Shown piece after piece: positions 1 to 29,131 of a stretch of 45,120 nucleotides of DNA. The translations under genes and the position numbers were made by a program. The notes under the pieces were generated by a model that did not search any database, was not told the origin of the DNA, and was given only the letters and a program-made list of their open reading frames with translations. The number at the start of each line of letters is the position of its first letter. The first letter of the stretch is position 1. This stretch comes from Myxococcales bacterium (GTDB lineage: Bacteria > Myxococcota_A > Polyangia > Palsa-1104 > SHYY01): positions 1-45,120 of the forward strand of contig SHYY01000022.1 in the NCBI GenBank assembly GCA_009692555.1. The letters are read 5' to 3'.

Positions 1-229
1 ACTCCATCGCGGAGCCCCGGGCGATGCTGTAGAAGCGGGCGCCATCCGGCGCTCCGAAGCGGCCCGCTCCCTCGGCGATGTTCCAGGGGAGGGAGAGCGC
101 CGCACGTTTGAGCTCTTCGGTGAGAAACGAGTTCCCCCTGGGGGCGCTCGTCGCGGTCTGCGACGCAAGGGCGAGGAGCTCGATGGCGCGGCGATAGACG
201 TCGAGCTTCTGGTCGGCCAGCAGGGGCAT
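1..229 (-). CDS. S23-type four-helix-bundle protein, partial
   Basis: This is the N-terminal 76 codons of a protein of the four-helix-bundle family that includes the proteins encoded in 23S rRNA intervening sequences (S23/IVP) and the related bAvd proteins. It starts MPLLADQKLDVYRRAIE and contains the family-typical segment LSLPWNIAEGAGR followed by FYSIARGSAME. ATG at 229 follows a strong AGGAGG with no real spacer. The frame is intact as far as it goes and runs off the window edge. A near-identical but frameshifted copy lies at 38538-38944 on the other strand. Family members are basic helical bundles, and RNA or protein partners are known only for a few. The function here is not known. The gene sits inside an inverted-repeat element rather than a normal operon. 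Confidence 0.75.
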   Translation of the reverse strand, partial: MPLLADQKLDVYRRAIELLALASQTATSAPRGNSFLTEELKRAALSLPWNIAEGAGRFGAPDGARFYSIARGSAME

Positions 230-311
230 CCTCCTGTGTGGCCAGGGTGGTCGGTTGGCAGTAGGAATTTGTTGCGGGAGGAAGTTCGATTGCCGTCGCT
301 GCGGAGGGGAC

Positions 312-359
312 GACTACGACTACGACTACGACTACGACTACGACTACGACTACGACTAC
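312..359. repeat. Hexanucleotide array, 8 x GACTAC
   Basis: Eight perfect tandem GACTAC units lie between the terminal repeat of the S23 element and the gene's ribosome-binding site. The second element copy (38426-38455) has five units in the same relative place, so the array is variable in number. Confidence 0.9.
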
Positions 360-491
360 GTGACGAGCAAGAGCCAGCAAGAGGGCCCCCTCCGCCGTTA
401 AGCACCCCGCCGCCCCGGGATGCAGGGATCGGGAAGGGCGCCCACCGGATGGCGTAGACTCGCGGCAGACTTCCTCCCACGGAGACCCGCC

Positions 492-1385
492 ATGGAGCCC
501 CTGTCCCTCCCCGCTACCAACGGCCCGTCCGGCGCCGCACCCCGCTTCTGGGGGCGCGAGCGCACCTTCGGCCAGCTCTTCGGCGCGGCGTTCGGGATGT
601 TCAATGCCCACACCCGCTGGCTGGTGCCGCTGGTGGTGACCGCGGCGGTCCCGGGGATCACCTGGTCGCTGATCGCGATGAATTTCTTCGGGATGGGCGA
701 TCCCAATCGGATGGTGCAGCGGATGCTGCGGTCGTCGCACCCGGGGTCGATGCTCGGGATGTTCATGATCCACCTGCTGATATCGATGGTGATCATGGTG
801 GCGGCCCAGTCCTTCACCCACGCGGCGATCTTCGGCACGCTGACGGCGGCGGGGCGCGGGGAGCCGCTCTCGCTCGGCCTGGCCTTCGATCGCGGCCTGA
901 GGGGCTTCTGGACCTACCTCGGCGCGTCGCTGTGGCTCGGCCTCCGGCTGCTCCCGTGGATGCTCCTCTTCCTCGTCCCGGGGATCATCAAGGCCTACGC
1001 CTGGATCTTCGCGCTTCCGGCACGGATGGCGGGGGACGCTCCGGATGCCGAGGCAGCGATCGCGATGTCGGCCGAGGCCACCAACGGCCGCAAGGCCTAC
1101 CTCTTCGGCTTCAACATCCTGATGGCGCTGATCATCGGCGGCGCCACCCTCCTCCTCTCGGGGATCAGCGCCGGGCTCACCTACGTCGCCGGCCGCTTCG
1201 GCGCGCAGGGGATGCTGATCGTCACGACGATGTTCGCGTCGCTGGCGGGGGTGATCGTCCAGCTCGGGATCTGGCTGTGCTACGCCGACGCGGTCGCCGG
1301 GTGGAACCCGCAGTCGGCCGCGGCCGCCTACGCCCTCGGCGTGACCGGCCGCCCGTTTCCCATCCCGACCTGGCGCCGCGTCTGA
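492..1385 (+). CDS. Multi-pass membrane protein of unknown function
   Basis: A 297-residue protein with a short polar N-terminus and about six hydrophobic segments: near residues 40-65, 90-115, 145-175, 205-230, 240-265 and 265-285. The pattern, with a conserved-looking AMSAEATNGRKAYLFGF stretch between helices, resembles the loosely defined DUF975/YciC-type membrane proteins. I would not assign a function. ATG 492 is chosen over an in-frame ATG at 420 because GGAG sits 7 nt before it and a plausible -10 (TAGACT) lies upstream at about 455. The gene stands alone and is followed by decayed sequence. Its last codons (GRP...PTWRR) are part of a short repeat also found at about 4490-4560. Confidence 0.7.
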   Translation: MEPLSLPATNGPSGAAPRFWGRERTFGQLFGAAFGMFNAHTRWLVPLVVTAAVPGITWSLIAMNFFGMGDPNRMVQRMLRSSHPGSMLGMFMIHLLISMVIMVAAQSFTHAAIFGTLTAAGRGEPLSLGLAFDRGLRGFWTYLGASLWLGLRLLPWMLLFLVPGIIKAYAWIFALPARMAGDAPDAEAAIAMSAEATNGRKAYLFGFNILMALIIGGATLLLSGISAGLTYVAGRFGAQGMLIVTTMFASLAGVIVQLGIWLCYADAVAGWNPQSAAAAYALGVTGRPFPIPTWRRV

Positions 1386-1434
1386 AATTCCTCGGGCGCC
1401 TCCCCGGCCGCGCCCGATCGCTGCTGCTCGGACT

Positions 1435-1849
1435 TCAGAGGCTGCACTCTCCGGCCGTACATGCGCCGCTGTGGCAGTCGGCTGCCGCGCCGCACGCCTT
1501 CTTCAGCGCGCACGGCGGGCAGGTTCCGCCGCAATCCACGTCACTCTCTCCGCCGCTCAGCGATCCGTCTCGGCAGTGTGGGTGCGGTGTAGGGATGTTG
1601 AGTAGCACCGAGAGTTTTCCGGTCTCCCCTCCAATAATCAAGTCGGGGAGGCCATCGCCGTTCAGGTCGCCGGTCGCGAGCCCGGAACCCGGCGAGCGCG
1701 TACGAACGCAGCGCCTCATCGCAGAATAGCCTGATATCGCCGAGCATTTGCGCCTCACGGAACCCGGCGGCGAAGGCGGGCGAGCCCGATCCGACGAGGA
1801 CCAGATCGCCCCCCGCCGCGCGCAGCTGTCGGCACCGCGCGCGCCTCAC
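1435..1849 (-). pseudogene. Mosaic of two gene fragments (peroxiredoxin-like and FG-GAP)
   Basis: Two unrelated protein fragments are joined here. Minus-strand codons from about 1849 to 1710 read LRAAGGDLVLVGSGSPAFAAG and continue with FREAQMLGD and LFCDEALRSYALAGF. This matches the middle of AhpC/TSA_2-type (PF13911-like) peroxiredoxins. In another frame, about 1710 to 1435, comes an FG-GAP repeat (GDLNGDGLPDLIIGG) followed by a Cys-rich tail with DVDCGGTCPPC, a C-terminal motif common on myxobacterial surface proteins. Neither piece has its own beginning. I read this as decayed remnants downstream of the frameshifted FG-GAP gene. The peroxiredoxin match rests on pattern recognition only. 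Confidence 0.55.
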
Positions 1850-2571
1850 TTGGCGAGGAGAACGATCAATCCGTCCACGTCGGCGAGTACGATATCGGGC
1901 TTGGCGTCGCCGTTCAGGTCCCCGAGAGCCACCTCGTAGGCGCCCTTCCCGACCTGGCAGACGGTCGCCGGTCCAAATCCGCCCATCCCGCTCCCCTTCA
2001 AGATCGAGATCTTGCTGGTCTTGAAATTCGTCGTGACGAGATCGACGTTCTTGTCGCCATCGAGATCGGCCGCGGCGATTCCGCCGTTGTCCTTCTCCGT
2101 CGGAAAGAGCACGGGGGGGCCGAAATCGCCATTCCCCTTTCCCATCGCGACCGTGACACCGTTCTTCTCCGCAACCACCCGGTCGACCTTGCCATCCTTG
2201 TTGAGATCTTTCAGGAGGAGGCCCTCGGGCACATCAGCGTTGATCGTTCCGAACTTGAGGAGGTCACCATTACCTTTCCCTTGACGGATGAGAACGTGCC
2301 CCAGAAGAGGGTCGGAAAAAACAAGGTCGAGCATACCGTCATTGTCGAAATCGGCGATCGCGAGCCAAGACGGGTACGCCACACCTCCGAAATACCGGGG
2401 GTCTTCGAATTGCCCCTTGCCCTTCCCAAGCAGAACAGCCACCGTGTTGAATCCTGCCTTGGTGTGTTGGTTAACCGAAACCAGGTCGGGTATGCCATCG
2501 CCGTTGAAGTCTCCAATCCCGACATCCGAGGGGAGGTCCCCGGCAGAGGCAGCCAGATCTCGGGTGAGAAC
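1846..2571 (-). pseudogene. C-terminal half of FG-GAP lipoprotein, displaced by a frameshift
   Basis: This frame carries the continuation of the FG-GAP (integrin/VCBS-like beta-propeller) protein that begins in the neighbouring entry. It starts near SDVGIGDFNGDGIPDLV and continues through four more repeats with the Ca-binding-type signature D-x-D/N-x-D-G, for example ADFDNDGMLDLVF, KDLNKDGKVDRVV, ADLDGDKNVDLVT and GDLNGDAKPDIVL. It ends at a TGA at 1846. The upstream half is in a different frame and the switch must lie around 2558-2575. With one indel corrected, a single FG-GAP lipoprotein would run from about 3341 to 1846. Either the gene is broken or the sequence has an error. Confidence 0.7.
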
Positions 2572-3920
2572 GCACCGTTTCCCTTCCCCAGGAGAACGGA
2601 CAGACCGAGAGAGTTCTCGTAGGAGGTGGCGACGTCAACCCAACCATCCAGGTTGAGATCGGCTACTGCGAGACGCCGAATGTCCTGCCATCTCGGAGAC
2701 CCACCAGCCAATGTGAGTGCGCCGTTGCCTTGTCCGAGAAAGAGAAGGATACTCTTCCCCGAATAACCATGCGCCACGCAGTCCAGCTTCCCGGCGTTGT
2801 TGAAGTCCGCCAGAGCTACCGGACCGAACATGTGCCCACCCAAATAGCGGGTCGGCGGCAGAAATCCCAGACATGGAGCTACCATCATCAGATCGCCAGC
2901 CAGGTCCGCAGGCGCTGTCTGATCGATTGCCTTCAGGTCCAAGGGAACTGACAGGTCGTTCTTGGCGTCCACAGGGACCGTCTGGTCGCTCTTGGCGTCC
3001 AAGGGAGCGGACTGGTCGTTGTTCAGGTCCAGCGGAACTGACTGGTCATGCGCCATGTCCAGTGGTGTCGATTGGTCACCTGCCGAATAGAAGTCTCGAT
3101 TGCCGTCACCCGCCGCCAGATCGACAACCGCCGCTCCGAGGTCGCCTCCCCCGTCGACCACGCTTGGGGAACCGAGGTCCGGCATCGATGGGTGAGTATC
3201 CATCGACGCGTCCCGTGGCGCGTCCGAATCGTATTCGGCCACCGCCGGAGCGTCGCATGCTGCCGGCGCCCAACCGAGGAGTGACGCGAAGAGCACGGGC
3301 CGCAAGGCGGTTCGATGCTTCGGGTGGCAGGCGTTCCTCACGTAACCGCATCCCGTCTGCGTCGAGACGGCTTGCCCCATGGACGATCCGCTCGCACTTC
3401 GCGCCGAGCCATCCGCCGTCAGCGCAGCGGAGTGGCCGGTCATCGCCGCCAGCCTCGTCTCTTGGGTCTCCTCACTGGCGAGGTACTGCCAACTCTGCGG
3501 CGACTGCACCGGCCCGGCCGGCGCGGCCATCTCTGCCAATCTGGAAGCCTGCATCTCCTCGCCGGGCAGGTACTTCCACTGCCCCGTTGCCTGGCCTGCC
3601 GGGTAGCTGCTCTTGAGCGGTTGAGAATCTTGAGGGGAGAACCAGTATGCAGCCGCCCGGGACCGCTGCGCGTCCAACCAGAACCGGCTCCTGATCCGCC
3701 GTCCCATGGTGCGGCCCCGTCCGTCCCTGACCAGCACGTCGATCGTTCCCGTGCCCTTGCAAATCGGGCACTGGGCCTCGTCGACCAGTTTCGCGGCCAT
3801 CACCTGCAGCAACTCCGCGGGCCGGAAGTCGCTCCGCTTGTGCTTACCGAGCGGGCTCGTGTAGACCACCTTCGCACCGAGGCAGTTGCAGCACGTCGCC
3901 GGGATCTTCAGTTGCGCCAT
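2211..3920 (-). CDS. Zinc-ribbon protein reading through into an FG-GAP lipoprotein (frameshifted)
   Basis: ATG 3920 follows GAGGAG and opens a 569-codon frame. Residues 10-13 (CCNC) and 51-58 (CPICKGTG) form a DnaJ-like pair of CxxC motifs, probably one zinc site. Residues about 105-160 hold two copies of a motif like QxWxYLxxEExQxxRLAxM. From residue 194 the frame becomes a lipoprotein: a basic n-region, the hydrophobic LRPVLFASLLGWAPAAC, a long DQS-P-LD rich linker, then FG-GAP repeats. No stop separates the two parts. GTG 3341 is a plausible independent lipoprotein start, so these may be two genes whose stop was lost, or a true fusion. After about 2570 the frame is wrong (see the 1846-2571 entry), so the annotated C-terminus is an artefact of the frameshift. 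Confidence 0.55.
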   Translation of the reverse strand: MAQLKIPATCCNCLGAKVVYTSPLGKHKRSDFRPAELLQVMAAKLVDEAQCPICKGTGTIDVLVRDGRGRTMGRRIRSRFWLDAQRSRAAAYWFSPQDSQPLKSSYPAGQATGQWKYLPGEEMQASRLAEMAAPAGPVQSPQSWQYLASEETQETRLAAMTGHSAALTADGSARSASGSSMGQAVSTQTGCGYVRNACHPKHRTALRPVLFASLLGWAPAACDAPAVAEYDSDAPRDASMDTHPSMPDLGSPSVVDGGGDLGAAVVDLAAGDGNRDFYSAGDQSTPLDMAHDQSVPLDLNNDQSAPLDAKSDQTVPVDAKNDLSVPLDLKAIDQTAPADLAGDLMMVAPCLGFLPPTRYLGGHMFGPVALADFNNAGKLDCVAHGYSGKSILLFLGQGNGALTLAGGSPRWQDIRRLAVADLNLDGWVDVATSYENSLGLSVLLGKGNGAFSPEIWLPLPGTSPRMSGLETSTAMAYPTWFRLTNTPRQDSTRWLFCLGRARGNSKTPGISEVWRTRLGSRSPISTMTVCSTLFFPTLFWGTFSSVKGKVMVTSSSSERSTLMCPRASS

Positions 3921-25189: not shown

Positions 25190-25258
25190 ACTTTCCCCCC
25201 CCTCGCCCCCGGTGATAGTGTGCCGCCGTCTACCACTGAATCCGCGGAGGATTTGCCC

Positions 25259-27484
25259 ATGCTGCGCACGCTTTGCCGCTCCCTTTTGCCCCTCCTCGTC
25301 GTCTCCTTCTCCTTCACTGCCACCGGCTGCGACGAGGAGGTCATCGAGGAGGACATGACGATCCAGCCCAAGCCCGACCTCGCCTCCAAGAAGGATCTCT
25401 CGATGGGCGGCGCCGACAAAGGCATGGTCGAGGAGGACATGGCCGAGGAAGAGGCCGACATGGCGCCCGGGGAGGATGGCGGCGGCGGCGCCTGCATGGC
25501 CGACGGCGACTGCATGGATCCGGCGAAGCCGCGCTGCGACAAGAACGGCGTGTGCCAGGCCTGCCTGGCCGACATGGACAACTGCCCCGACGGCGAGTAC
25601 TGCGACGAGGCGAACGGCTTCGTGTGCGCCAAGGGCTGCAAGGACGACAAGGCGTGCAACGGCGGCGGCGGCGCTGACGCCGGCACCGACGACGGCGGCG
25701 TCGACGGTGGCATGATGGGCGGCGCGCTCGCTTGCTGCGATCACAAGTGCATCGACGTGGCGATGGATAACGCCAACTGCGGCAAGTGCGGCGGCGCCTG
25801 CAACATGGGCGATTCGTGCTGCGCGGCGGCCTGCATCGACAGCCAGGCCGACATCAAGAACTGCGGCGGCTGCGGCATGGCGTGCGCCTTCGCCAACGGC
25901 AGCGGCACCTGCGGCAAGGGAATGTGCGCGTTCGACAAGTGCACCATGGGCTTCGACGACTGCGACAAAGATCTCAAGAACGGCTGCGAGGCCGACGTGG
26001 CAGGCGACGCCAAGAACTGCGGCGCGTGCGGCACGGCGTGCGACCCGGTCCCGAATGGCATGGCTGCGTGCATGGGCGGCAAGTGCGCCGCGGGCACCTG
26101 CAACATGGGCTTTGGCGACTGCGACAAGGACGCCAAGAACGGCTGCGAGGAGGACCTCGCGGTGAGCGCCGGGAACTGCGGCGCGTGCGGCACCTCCTGC
26201 ATGGCGGTCGCGAACGGGATGCCCGCCTGCATGGGCGGGATGTGCACCGCCGGCACCTGCAACAAGGGCTTCGCCGACTGCGACATGGACGACAAGACCG
26301 GCTGCGAGACCGACGTCACGACGGTGAAGGATTGCGGCGCCTGCGGCACGGTGTGCGCGGCGGTGGCCAACGGCTCGGCCGCCTGCACCGCCGGCAAGTG
26401 CGCCTCGGCCTGCAACGTCGGCTTCGACGACTGCGACCTGGACGCGAAGAACGGCTGCGAGATCGACACCGGCAGCGACGGCAAGAACTGCGGCGCGTGC
26501 GGCACGGTGTGCGGCGCGGTGGCGAACGGCAGCTCGACCTGCACCAAGGGCGCCTGCGTGGCGACCTGCAGCGCGGGCTACGCCGACTGCGACAAGGACC
26601 CGAAGAACGGCTGCGAGATCAACACCAACACCGACCTCAACAACTGCGGCGCGTGCGCCGCGAAGTGCGGCGCGGTCGCCAACGGCGTTTCCGGCTGCGC
26701 GGCCGGCAAGTGCGCGGTCGCCTCCTGCAACGGCAATTTCGCCGACTGCGACAAGGACGCGGCGACCGGCTGCGAGGCCAACACCGACACCGACGTCAAG
26801 AACTGCGGCGCCTGCGGCAACGCCTGTGCCGGCACCTGCGGTACCGCGGTCAGCGAGACCATGGCGGTGCTCCCGACCGGCTGGAACTTCAACGGGAACG
26901 CCTCCTACGACGCGGCGGCGAAGACCGGTGTGCTGACTCCGGTGCTGACCAACCAGGCCGGCACCATCCTCTACAAGAGGCCGATCAAGACCGACTCGTT
27001 CGACGTCAGCTACGACTTCCTGATCGGCGGCGGCACGGGCGGCGACGGGATCGGCTTCATCATCCAGAAGAACAACGCGGTGGCGGTCGGCACCGGCGGC
27101 GGCGGCCTCGGCATCTCCGGCTTCACAGGCTTCGGCGTCGAGCTCGACACCTACGACAACGGCGTGTGCGGCGACGCGAGCTCGAATCACGTCGCGATCG
27201 ACAACCTCACGCCCTGCGGCGGCGGGCCCCCGACCCCGCTCTACGTGAACAACAACCTGCCGTTCCAGCTCCGCAACAGCGGCTGGCACACCTGCACCAT
27301 CAAGAACGACGCCGGCGTCTTCACCGTCACCCTCGACGGAACCACCGTCGTCTCGCTCCAGAAGGTCGACGGCTACGCCCCCGGCACGTTCTACTACGGC
27401 TTCGGCGGAGCCACCGGCGGCTCGACGGATCGCCAGGAGATCCGCAACGTGAAGATCACCTTCCCGTCGCCGCGCTGCCTCTAG
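25259..27484 (+). CDS. Cys-rich repeat lipoprotein with lectin-like C-terminus
   Basis: A 741-residue surface lipoprotein. A signal peptide with lipobox TATGC is followed by an acidic Asp/Met-rich linker (about 25-80), a Cys-rich segment, and then eight units of about 35-50 residues. Each unit contains NCGACGT-C and DCD-D-KNGCE type motifs, which probably form disulfide-locked, possibly Ca-binding, rods. The last 210 residues (from MAVLPTGWNFNG) look like a legume/bacterial L-type lectin fold: SYDFLIGGGTGGDGIGFII, GFGVELDTYDN and a terminal NVKITFPS strand. The likely role is adhesion or carbohydrate binding at the surface. ATG 25259 is chosen for GGAGG at the right distance. Its 3' end is duplicated at 28267. 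Confidence 0.85.
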   Translation: MLRTLCRSLLPLLVVSFSFTATGCDEEVIEEDMTIQPKPDLASKKDLSMGGADKGMVEEDMAEEEADMAPGEDGGGGACMADGDCMDPAKPRCDKNGVCQACLADMDNCPDGEYCDEANGFVCAKGCKDDKACNGGGGADAGTDDGGVDGGMMGGALACCDHKCIDVAMDNANCGKCGGACNMGDSCCAAACIDSQADIKNCGGCGMACAFANGSGTCGKGMCAFDKCTMGFDDCDKDLKNGCEADVAGDAKNCGACGTACDPVPNGMAACMGGKCAAGTCNMGFGDCDKDAKNGCEEDLAVSAGNCGACGTSCMAVANGMPACMGGMCTAGTCNKGFADCDMDDKTGCETDVTTVKDCGACGTVCAAVANGSAACTAGKCASACNVGFDDCDLDAKNGCEIDTGSDGKNCGACGTVCGAVANGSSTCTKGACVATCSAGYADCDKDPKNGCEINTNTDLNNCGACAAKCGAVANGVSGCAAGKCAVASCNGNFADCDKDAATGCEANTDTDVKNCGACGNACAGTCGTAVSETMAVLPTGWNFNGNASYDAAAKTGVLTPVLTNQAGTILYKRPIKTDSFDVSYDFLIGGGTGGDGIGFIIQKNNAVAVGTGGGGLGISGFTGFGVELDTYDNGVCGDASSNHVAIDNLTPCGGGPPTPLYVNNNLPFQLRNSGWHTCTIKNDAGVFTVTLDGTTVVSLQKVDGYAPGTFYYGFGGATGGSTDRQEIRNVKITFPSPRCL

Positions 27485-27584
27485 TGTCAAGTAGCTCTCC
27501 GCCGCCGGCCCCGAGCCGGCGGCCGGAGAGTGCAATGTCGCGCACCGCCCTCATCCACCTCAAGCGTTCCGATCCCGTCCTGGC
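27458..27584 (+). repeat. 127-bp direct repeat, left copy
   Basis: It holds the last codons of the lectin-like gene, the intergenic region, and the first about 17 codons of the glycosylase gene (MSRTALIHLKRSDPVLA), after which it diverges. The right copy at 28267-28393 is about 92 percent identical by eye and leads into the intact glycosylase gene. Confidence 0.85.
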
Positions 27585-27666
27585 CCCCGCGCTCGCGACG
27601 GACATGGACCACGACCCGTTTTGGGTCCACATTCAGGTCGAGTCCAGACCCTCGAGGAGCACCCCC

Positions 27667-27945
27667 GTGAAGCCCAGCCATGCGATCAAGCCGATCAGCT
27701 ACCTCAAGGCACACGCCGCGGAGATGATCCGCGAGGTCGCCGACCAGCACGCGACGATCATCATCACCCAGAACGGCGAGGCGCGGGCGGTCCTCCAGGA
27801 CATCGGCGCGTACGAGCGGCTCCAGGACAGCGTCGCGCTACTCAAGATCCTCGCGCTCAGCCAGAAGAGCGTGCGCGACGGACGAGTCGCCCCGGCCGGC
27901 GAGGTGTTCCGCCGGGTTCGCAAGCGGCTGAAGGCCAACCCGTGA
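27667..27945 (+). CDS. Phd/YefM-family antitoxin
   Basis: A 92-residue antitoxin: KPISYLKAHAAEMIREV, TIIITQNGEARAVLQDIGAYE and a charged C-terminal tail, the classic Phd/YefM layout (N-terminal DNA-binding dimer, C-terminal toxin-binding tail). It should bind and neutralise the RelE-like toxin and repress the operon. GTG 27667 follows GAGGAG. Its stop overlaps the toxin start (GTGA). The gene lies between two direct repeats, so it arrived as a cassette. The window gives no direct evidence about activity. Confidence 0.85.
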   Translation: MKPSHAIKPISYLKAHAAEMIREVADQHATIIITQNGEARAVLQDIGAYERLQDSVALLKILALSQKSVRDGRVAPAGEVFRRVRKRLKANP

Positions 27946-28265
27946 AGTACGCCGTCCTCCTCTCCCGAGACCCGGAGGACGATCTCGTCGACCTCTACCG
28001 CTACGTCGCCCAGGTCGAATCGGTGGAGCGGGCCGAGCACCTGCTGAGCCGCCTCGAGCGTGCGTGCCTCGCGCCGGGACAGTTCCCGAATCGAGGCCGG
28101 GCTTCTCCCGAGCTGGAGTCGGTCGGCGTGATGGAATTCCGCCAGATCGCCGAGCCGCCCTACCGCATCCTCTATCGCCTCACCGGCCAGACGGTCCACG
28201 TACACGCCGTGCTGGACGGCCGCCGCGACCTCTCCGATCTCCTCGCGCGGCGACTGCTCCGGTAG
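27942..28265 (+). CDS. RelE/ParE-family toxin
   Basis: A 107-residue RelE/ParE-fold protein: KYAVLLSRDPEDDLVDLYRYV, then RAEHLLSRLERACL and the C-terminal EFRQIAEPPYRILYRLTGQTVHVHAVLDGRRDL strands. Members are ribosome-dependent mRNA nucleases or gyrase poisons; the sequence does not decide which. It overlaps the antitoxin by 4 bp (GTGA), implying coupled translation. The stop (28265) is next to the right direct repeat. Confidence 0.85.
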   Translation: MKYAVLLSRDPEDDLVDLYRYVAQVESVERAEHLLSRLERACLAPGQFPNRGRASPELESVGVMEFRQIAEPPYRILYRLTGQTVHVHAVLDGRRDLSDLLARRLLR

Positions 28266-28266
28266 G

Positions 28267-28393
28267 ACCTTCCCGTCGCCGCGCTGCCTCTGGTGTAGAG
28301 TAGCGCTCCGCCGCCGTCCCCAAGCCGGCGGCCGGAGAGTGCAATGTCCCGCACCGCCCTCCTCCACCTCAAACGTTCCGATCCCGTCCTGGC
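28267..28393 (+). repeat. 127-bp direct repeat, right copy
   Basis: It starts with the last codons of the lectin-like gene, out of context here, includes a TAGAGT -10-like box and GGAGAG, and runs into the real start of the glycosylase gene at 28344. It pairs with the copy at 27458-27584; together they bracket the toxin-antitoxin module. Confidence 0.85.
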
Positions 28394-28955
28394 GCGCGTC
28401 ATCGCCGAGGTCGGCCCCTGCCGCTTTCGCGCCCGCAGCGAGGGCACGCACTTCGACGCGATCGTCCGCGCGATCATCTACCAGCAGCTCTCGGGCAAGG
28501 CCGCGGCGACCATCCACGCGCGCTTCGACGGGCTCCACGGCGGTCCGCCGACGCCCGCGCAGGTGCTCGCCACCAGCGACGAGAAACTGCGCGCGGTCGG
28601 CCTCTCACGGCAGAAGCTGGGCTACCTGAAAGACCTCGCCGAGCGCGCGCTCTCGAGCGAGGTGGCGATCGATCGGCTGCAGGATCTCGACGATACGGCG
28701 GTGATCGCCGCGCTGACGCGGGTGAAGGGCATCGGACTCTGGACCGCGCAGATGTTCCTCCTCTTCCGCCTCGGCCGCCCGGACGTACTCCCCGACGGCG
28801 ACCTCGGGATTCGCAAGGCGGTAAAGCGGGCGTACCAGCTGCGGACGCTCCCCGAGCCGGCGCGCGTCCTGGCGATCGGCGCGAAGTGGCGCCCCTACGC
28901 GAGCATCGCCGCCTGGTACCTGTGGCGTTCGCTCGACGGCGACGGCGAGGCCTGA
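28344..28955 (+). CDS. DNA-3-methyladenine glycosylase II (AlkA-like)
   Basis: A 203-residue HhH-GPD base-excision glycosylase that removes alkylated bases from DNA. Seen: AIVRAIIYQQLSGKAA, the helix-hairpin-helix LTRVKGIGLWTAQMF, and VLPDGDLGIRKA with the catalytic Asp of the GPD motif. It has the short AlkA form without the N-terminal domain of the E. coli enzyme. ATG 28344 follows GGAGAG. Upstream lies the direct repeat, so the promoter region itself is duplicated. Confidence 0.9.
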   Translation: MSRTALLHLKRSDPVLARVIAEVGPCRFRARSEGTHFDAIVRAIIYQQLSGKAAATIHARFDGLHGGPPTPAQVLATSDEKLRAVGLSRQKLGYLKDLAERALSSEVAIDRLQDLDDTAVIAALTRVKGIGLWTAQMFLLFRLGRPDVLPDGDLGIRKAVKRAYQLRTLPEPARVLAIGAKWRPYASIAAWYLWRSLDGDGEA

Positions 28956-28983
28956 TCCGTGATCTTCCGGCGGCCGCGCGGCG

Positions 28984-29097
28984 TTTCCGTTTCCGTTTCC
29001 GTTCCCGTTCCCGTTTCCGTTTCCGTTCCCGTTCCCGTTTCCGTTCCCGTTTCCGTTCCCGTTCCCGTTTCCGTTCCCGTTCCCGTTCCCGTTCCCG
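28984..29097. repeat. Hexanucleotide VNTR, 19 units of TTTCCG/TTCCCG
   Basis: Nineteen tandem hexamers, each TTTCCG or TTCCCG, fill the space between the glycosylase stop (28955) and the next gene start (about 29132). It is purine/pyrimidine-strand-biased. The tract replaces the expected promoter/leader region of the oxidoreductase gene. Confidence 0.92.
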
Positions 29098-29131
29098 TTT
29101 CGGTGTCGCGGGCGGAGGGGGGTGCGCCCCG

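Follow-up and report, generated by a model that had tools for sequence, protein, structure and literature searches.

The subject of this analysis is a small toxin–antitoxin (TA) unit of a Myxococcales bacterium (assembly GCA_009692555.1, genome G000 below), located on contig SHYY01000022.1, of which positions 1 to 45,120 (hereafter the window) were analysed. The unit is 682 bp long (27585..28266, + strand) and is composed of an upstream region, an antitoxin gene and a toxin gene. It lies between the gene of a lectin-like secreted protein with an L-type lectin domain and Cys-rich repeats (25220..27484, +) and the intact gene of an HhH-GPD (AlkA-like) DNA glycosylase (28344..28955, +), and the junction of these two genes is found on both sides of it. 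The antitoxin (27667..27945, +) is a Phd/YefM-family protein of 92 aa, which starts with GTG, has GGAG ahead of the start, and matches Pfam PhdYeFM_antitox (PF02604) with 59.3 bits (cut-off 29.8, E 3e-16). The toxin (27942..28265, +), a ParE/RelE-superfamily protein of 107 aa, also starts with GTG, overlaps the stop of the antitoxin by 4 bases and matches ParE_toxin (PF05016) with 51.7 bits (cut-off 23, E 1e-13); only one base separates its stop codon from the right copy of the junction. In the order, overlap and sizes of its genes and in their Pfam families, the pair agrees with the known type II modules of a Phd/YefM antitoxin and an overlapping ParE/RelE-fold toxin, and it is accordingly classified, from its predicted proteins, as a type II TA pair. 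Upstream of the antitoxin, an inverted repeat TGGACC-N13-GGTCCA with 6-bp arms (27605..27629) is possibly a candidate operator, on weak evidence.

These two genes are the whole coding content of the insert, and no transposase or other mobility gene is present within its 682 bp. A terminal inverted repeat is likewise missing from the insert, since the best score was reached by 54% of shuffles, which is the chance level. A classical DNA transposon was rejected on these two grounds and on the length of the duplication, which is 127 bp here and variable between loci, as opposed to a short and fixed one. Integron cassettes can also be small TA units between direct repeats of about 60–130 bp. However, such cassettes carry attC cores, and the repeats of the type found in the window are the ends of host genes and differ from locus to locus; no attC core (RYYYAAC / GTTRRRY) was found in either repeat copy or at the insert boundaries, so that an integron cassette was rejected as well. 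In the distant genome G059 of the same class, a TA pair homologue with 60% identity (C157, L062, 5080-8257) lies on the same strand two genes upstream of a glycosylase homologue with 46% identity, and this proximity may be either coincidence or linkage.

The duplicated lectin–glycosylase junction

The flanking direct repeat (27458-27584 and 28267-28393) is 127 bp long, and 118 of the 127 positions are identical (92.9%) in an ungapped alignment with a spacing of 809 bp. In a blastn self-comparison of the window, the two copies matched with E = 7e-50, and the next-best window match of either copy, apart from the hairpin of the left copy itself, had an E value of at least 0.003. Neither the rest of the window nor the rest of the 6.1-Mb draft genome contains a third copy, that is to say, the junction is otherwise single-copy. 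The left copy (27458..27584, +) contains the last 27 bp of the lectin gene with its TAG stop (27482-27484), then a spacer, and finally 50 bp from the start of the glycosylase ORF (ATG at 27535). In the right copy (28267..28393, +), the lectin tail has TGG in place of its stop (28291-28293), and the spacer leads to the glycosylase start in its intact form (ATG 28344). The lectin gene is whole only at the left copy and the glycosylase gene only at the right one, and each is broken at the other copy. Since the duplication spans the end of the former and the start of the latter, both neighbouring genes stayed whole.

The duplicated 127-bp junction around the TA pair and the truncated glycosylase start upstream of the antitoxin (27535..27584, +) had been correctly recognised in a preliminary description of the locus, made from the sequence alone. 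The divergence of roughly 8% given there is somewhat lower when measured, namely 7.1% (9 differences in 127 positions); the statement that the insertion is not very recent holds in the form of "not recent", and nothing finer can be said of the timing. It had also been claimed that the downstream gene and its promoter were kept intact, which is right for the glycosylase gene and only partly so for the promoter: the spacer of the right copy differs from the left one at 5 positions, and its hairpin is weaker (−27.5 kcal/mol). The further idea given there, that the toxin would select against a clean deletion of the unit by recombination, is a hypothesis that found no support here. In the left spacer there is a strong hairpin (27495..27530, +), where a 68-nt stretch has a folding energy of −36.6 kcal/mol (z −4.0) and the 3′ arm includes a ribosome-site-like motif, GGAGAG. 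The truncated glycosylase start and the antitoxin share one reading frame, which is open over 136 codons (27535-27945). An in-frame upstream ATG from a host gene is the feature in which the window antitoxin differs from the known type II modules, and, with GGAGAG ahead of it, this left ATG may yield an N-terminally extended antitoxin and a host translation start.

A repeat of this kind could also be produced when strain variants of a metagenome-assembled genome are joined at a junction during assembly. G000 is one fragmented draft (6.1 Mb, 283 contigs, 80% complete), and assemblers commonly work with a k-mer length of 127, equal to the length of the repeat. The copies differ at 9 sites, therefore an exact k-mer overlap was rejected. 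As for the wider form of the artefact, a complete gene adjoins each copy on one side, no overlap is shared between the end of the toxin and the lectin tail, and the same architecture is found with other lengths (31, 42 and 107 bp), including one in another genome, all of which makes it very improbable.

Scars at other toxin loci and empty sites in relatives

The genome G000 is rich in TA genes, with 26 Phd/YefM, 7 ParE and 71 PIN matches, and its PIN-domain matches compare with 4 in the congener G001 and 14 in a family member; that is, the load of VapC-like toxins differs strikingly between near relatives (G000 and G001). The toxin loci were scanned by matching the 550 bp ahead of the pair against the 250 bp after the toxin stop with a score cut-off of 45, the sample comprising about 0.75 Mb of genome stretches and the listed PIN and ParE loci. 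The score was reached at 4 of the 77 usable toxin loci of G000, namely the window, C1, C87 and C266. About 1% of random placements with the same geometry reached 45, nearly all of them inside one repetitive gene; with the copies not in one long ORF, the number was 12 in 12,000, the window itself being among the contributors. On this basis, the Poisson probability is about 1e-6 for four loci of 77 and 7e-5 for three.

At C1, a pair of Phd antitoxin and PIN toxin follows a porin-like gene, and a 42-bp copy of the 3′ end of that gene begins 23 bp past the toxin stop; this right copy is decayed, with the stop lost, a frameshift and a change of Asn to His. At C87, an antitoxin and a PIN toxin are accompanied by a duplicated 31 bp that end 9 bp short of the end of the preceding gene. 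The window and C87 also have in common a 15-mer (CTTCCCGTCGCCGCG) downstream of the toxins, which is rare in the sampled genome and for which no meaning was found. Two more duplications were observed in G000. In C17 (L200), a small-gene end of 49 bp, stop included and 96% identical (2204-2252 and 2731-2779), surrounds a single 436-bp ORF (2278-2713), which is not obviously a TA gene and lies just downstream of a PIN toxin pair, so that the same scar is seen at a non-TA gene. In C68 (L277), a 48-bp copy with 90% identity (780-827 and about 2450-2497) follows a PIN toxin and derives from an internal stretch of the preceding gene, some 1 kb short of the end of that gene, which is perhaps a longer duplication that later shrank.

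The remaining locus of the scan, C266, is a ParE-like locus among dispersed repeats (a family of 72–160 bp). In its stretch 1-3700 (L179/L222), several dispersed repeats of 70–160 bp (GGGCGGGCCGCAGAACGCGGAGCCG...) and fragments resembling, by eye, a group II intron reverse transcriptase can be seen. In another genome, G049, a ParE-like toxin (C479, L327, 11268-11519 and flanks) lies between the copies of a 68-bp direct repeat, whose first bases are the palindrome GGGGTCAGACCCC and which resembles a dispersed element. With two ParE loci bracketed in this way, it could be proposed that the window pair was also mobilised by a dispersed repeat or a miniature element flanking it; but the window repeat consists of host gene ends, none of which occurs in unrelated places of the genome, and this explanation has hardly any probability.

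Among other genomes, G001, G002 and G059 together provided 29 usable PIN loci, and the same flank scan gave no match at any of them. ParE-like loci of the class were examined too, and in G275, which belongs to another family, a homologous Phd/YefM and ParE pair lies between two copies of a gene end of about 107 bp, the right copy beginning 6 bp after the toxin stop; the duplicated gene reads like an E1 subunit of 2-oxoacid dehydrogenase (named by eye). A search for the same pair between other duplicated junctions had been recommended in the preliminary description, as had a search for empty sites, and G275 answers the first. Empty sites were obtained at two loci other than the window. First of all, when the TA pair of C1 is removed, the joined flanks give one continuous alignment (26-820 of 820) to the order-level relative G006, in which 8 bp separate the porin stop from a convergent neighbour gene, with one junction copy and no TA pair. 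Secondly, in four congeners of G275 the gene has a single 3′ end and no TA pair. No match across the joined flanks of C87 and C17 was found in the relatives searched. It is thus shown that at C1 and G275 the insertion of the pair goes with the duplication of its target, and because the anatomy of the window is identical to that of these two loci, we infer the same history for it.

The order of events could be reversed, with a tandem 127-bp duplication first and the entry of the TA pair between the copies later, or the left copy could be an independent regulatory element. At the window, duplication and insertion are inseparable without relatives, and the left spacer keeps the stronger hairpin and could still act as a terminator of the lectin gene. 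However, such an order requires a coincidence at several loci, with the second copy 1–50 bp past the toxin stop each time; a form with the repeat and without TA was not seen, and the relatives of C1 and G275 have neither. This order of events is therefore regarded as improbable.

For the window site itself, the nearest comparison genomes are those of a congener and of a further member of the family. In the family member, a glycosylase homologue (60% identical) is followed by the same oxidoreductase gene, and its upstream neighbour is other than lectin; the N-terminus of the glycosylase is too variable among the homologues for the ancestral state to be read from the differences at the gene start. 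The lectin gene of the window has three copies of a 156-bp Cys-rich repeat (26406-26876; 63–76% identical to the first), and a hexamer repeat array of the CGTTTC/CGTTCC type (28982-29107) lies between the glycosylase gene and the FAD oxidoreductase gene.

A probable insertion with a long target duplication

In the preliminary description, the locus had been read as a TA insertion that duplicated its target. This is still the best reading, with the same scar at other TA pairs and two of the sites empty in relatives, and insertion with a long target duplication is considered, with good confidence, to be the history of the window pair. Two features are shared over the loci: the duplication is long and variable (127, 42, 31 and about 107 bp), and the unit ends at the toxin stop or no more than about 50 bp beyond it. 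According to this history, a self-contained TA unit of 682 bp would have entered the lectin–glycosylase junction, and 127 bp of the target would have been doubled on either side of it. In the proposed mechanism, one nick in each strand, some 127 nt from the other, would open the target, a linear TA fragment would be captured at the staggered break, filling-in of the overhangs would make two copies, and these copies would later drift to 9 differences. The capture at a staggered break with subsequent fill-in is a plausible step, to which slightly less than even confidence is given. A Ku homologue is present in G000, split over two contig fragments, so that end joining may be available. The decay of the right copy at C1 favours plain duplication.

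The main rival is a homology-anchored integration, in which DNA of a diverged relative carrying a junction copy and the TA pair would enter by one homologous crossover, and both the donor copy and the resident copy would remain. It could proceed either through a Campbell-type circle or through homology-facilitated illegitimate recombination, in which the second end is attached without any homology. A precedent is the event described in H. pylori ELS37, where one junction was homologous and the other was not (PMC4615327). The copies at the loci are about 4–10% diverged, and 10 of the 15 coding differences over five loci are at the third codon position and none at the second (hand count; chance 0.009 under no constraint), as if both copies had once been working genes; the third-position excess is compatible with a mixing of constrained and free copies as well as with divergence that preceded the entry. 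On the other side, apart from the decayed copy at C1, the right copy of the window lacks the lectin stop, no donor arrangement of a gene end with a TA pair was found, and the donor of the window would need a TA pair 50 bp inside its glycosylase gene. Homology-anchored integration is regarded as rather unlikely.

Several points weigh against target duplication by insertion, which is preferred here. One of them comes from G275: at the codons differing between the copies, the state of the closest congener, G290, sits in the right copy, so that it is the left copy, joined to the working gene, that has changed and is the odd one against the relatives. This would not be expected if the target had simply been duplicated and the dead copy had then decayed, and it favours the homology-anchored rival. 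Moreover, the junctions share no bases, and no microhomology or break signature favours one repair route. The lectin domain is absent from all 14 other near genomes searched, and therefore the empty form of the window site could not be shown. The control statistic for the scan was designed only after the first cases had been seen.

Known systems and a proposed movement of toxin–antitoxin pairs

Restriction-modification genes, initially those of Helicobacter pylori, are the units for which insertion with a long target duplication was reported (Nobusato et al. 2000, Gene 259:99-108, as cited in PMC3874152, PMC1643837 and PMC3031569). As far as these citing accounts describe it, the Helicobacter case is similar to the present one in that an addiction-type unit without mobility genes is enclosed by long and variable target repeats of the order of 100 bp, and the target is single-copy in genomes without the unit, as at the sites of C1 and G275. 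The type cases in these accounts are restriction-modification systems, and the cases here are type II TA pairs in an unrelated, high-GC and TA-rich lineage. The window unit is a TA pair and not a restriction-modification system; therefore it is a variant outside the original set. In the open-access literature, the passages on long target duplication in PMC1643837 and PMC3031569 do not report type II TA pairs, and the relevant part of a TA review of 2009 (PMC2654758) mentions this work only as a restriction-modification parallel. Judging from the sequences, the mode appears to extend to type II TA pairs. Transposed genes of Arabidopsis are also flanked by direct repeats, which are often present at the empty orthologous site too (Woodhouse et al. 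2010, PMC2869330). They resemble the present case as non-transposon genes between direct repeats; unlike it, they are eukaryotic and have been explained mainly by circles and ectopic recombination (PMC2869330).

The present results bear on how chromosomal TA pairs relocate when no mobile element is apparent, and they suggest that selfish TA genes enter chromosomes through a cut by which some tens to about 100 bases of the target are doubled. It is proposed, quite tentatively, that type II TA pairs of different families move as bare units without transposase by a host-repair route duplicating 30 to 130 bp, that the insertions are seen where the neighbouring genes are spared, and that TA-rich genomes such as G000 (71 PIN matches against 4 in the congener) have been filled in this way. 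The type II TA pairs would thereby be tied to the insertion mode of restriction-modification systems, which are likewise addiction genes. From the duplications one can read precisely which target was hit, which unit moved and in what order the events took place, and the scars, together with the empty sites in relatives, make the movement of TA pairs testable.
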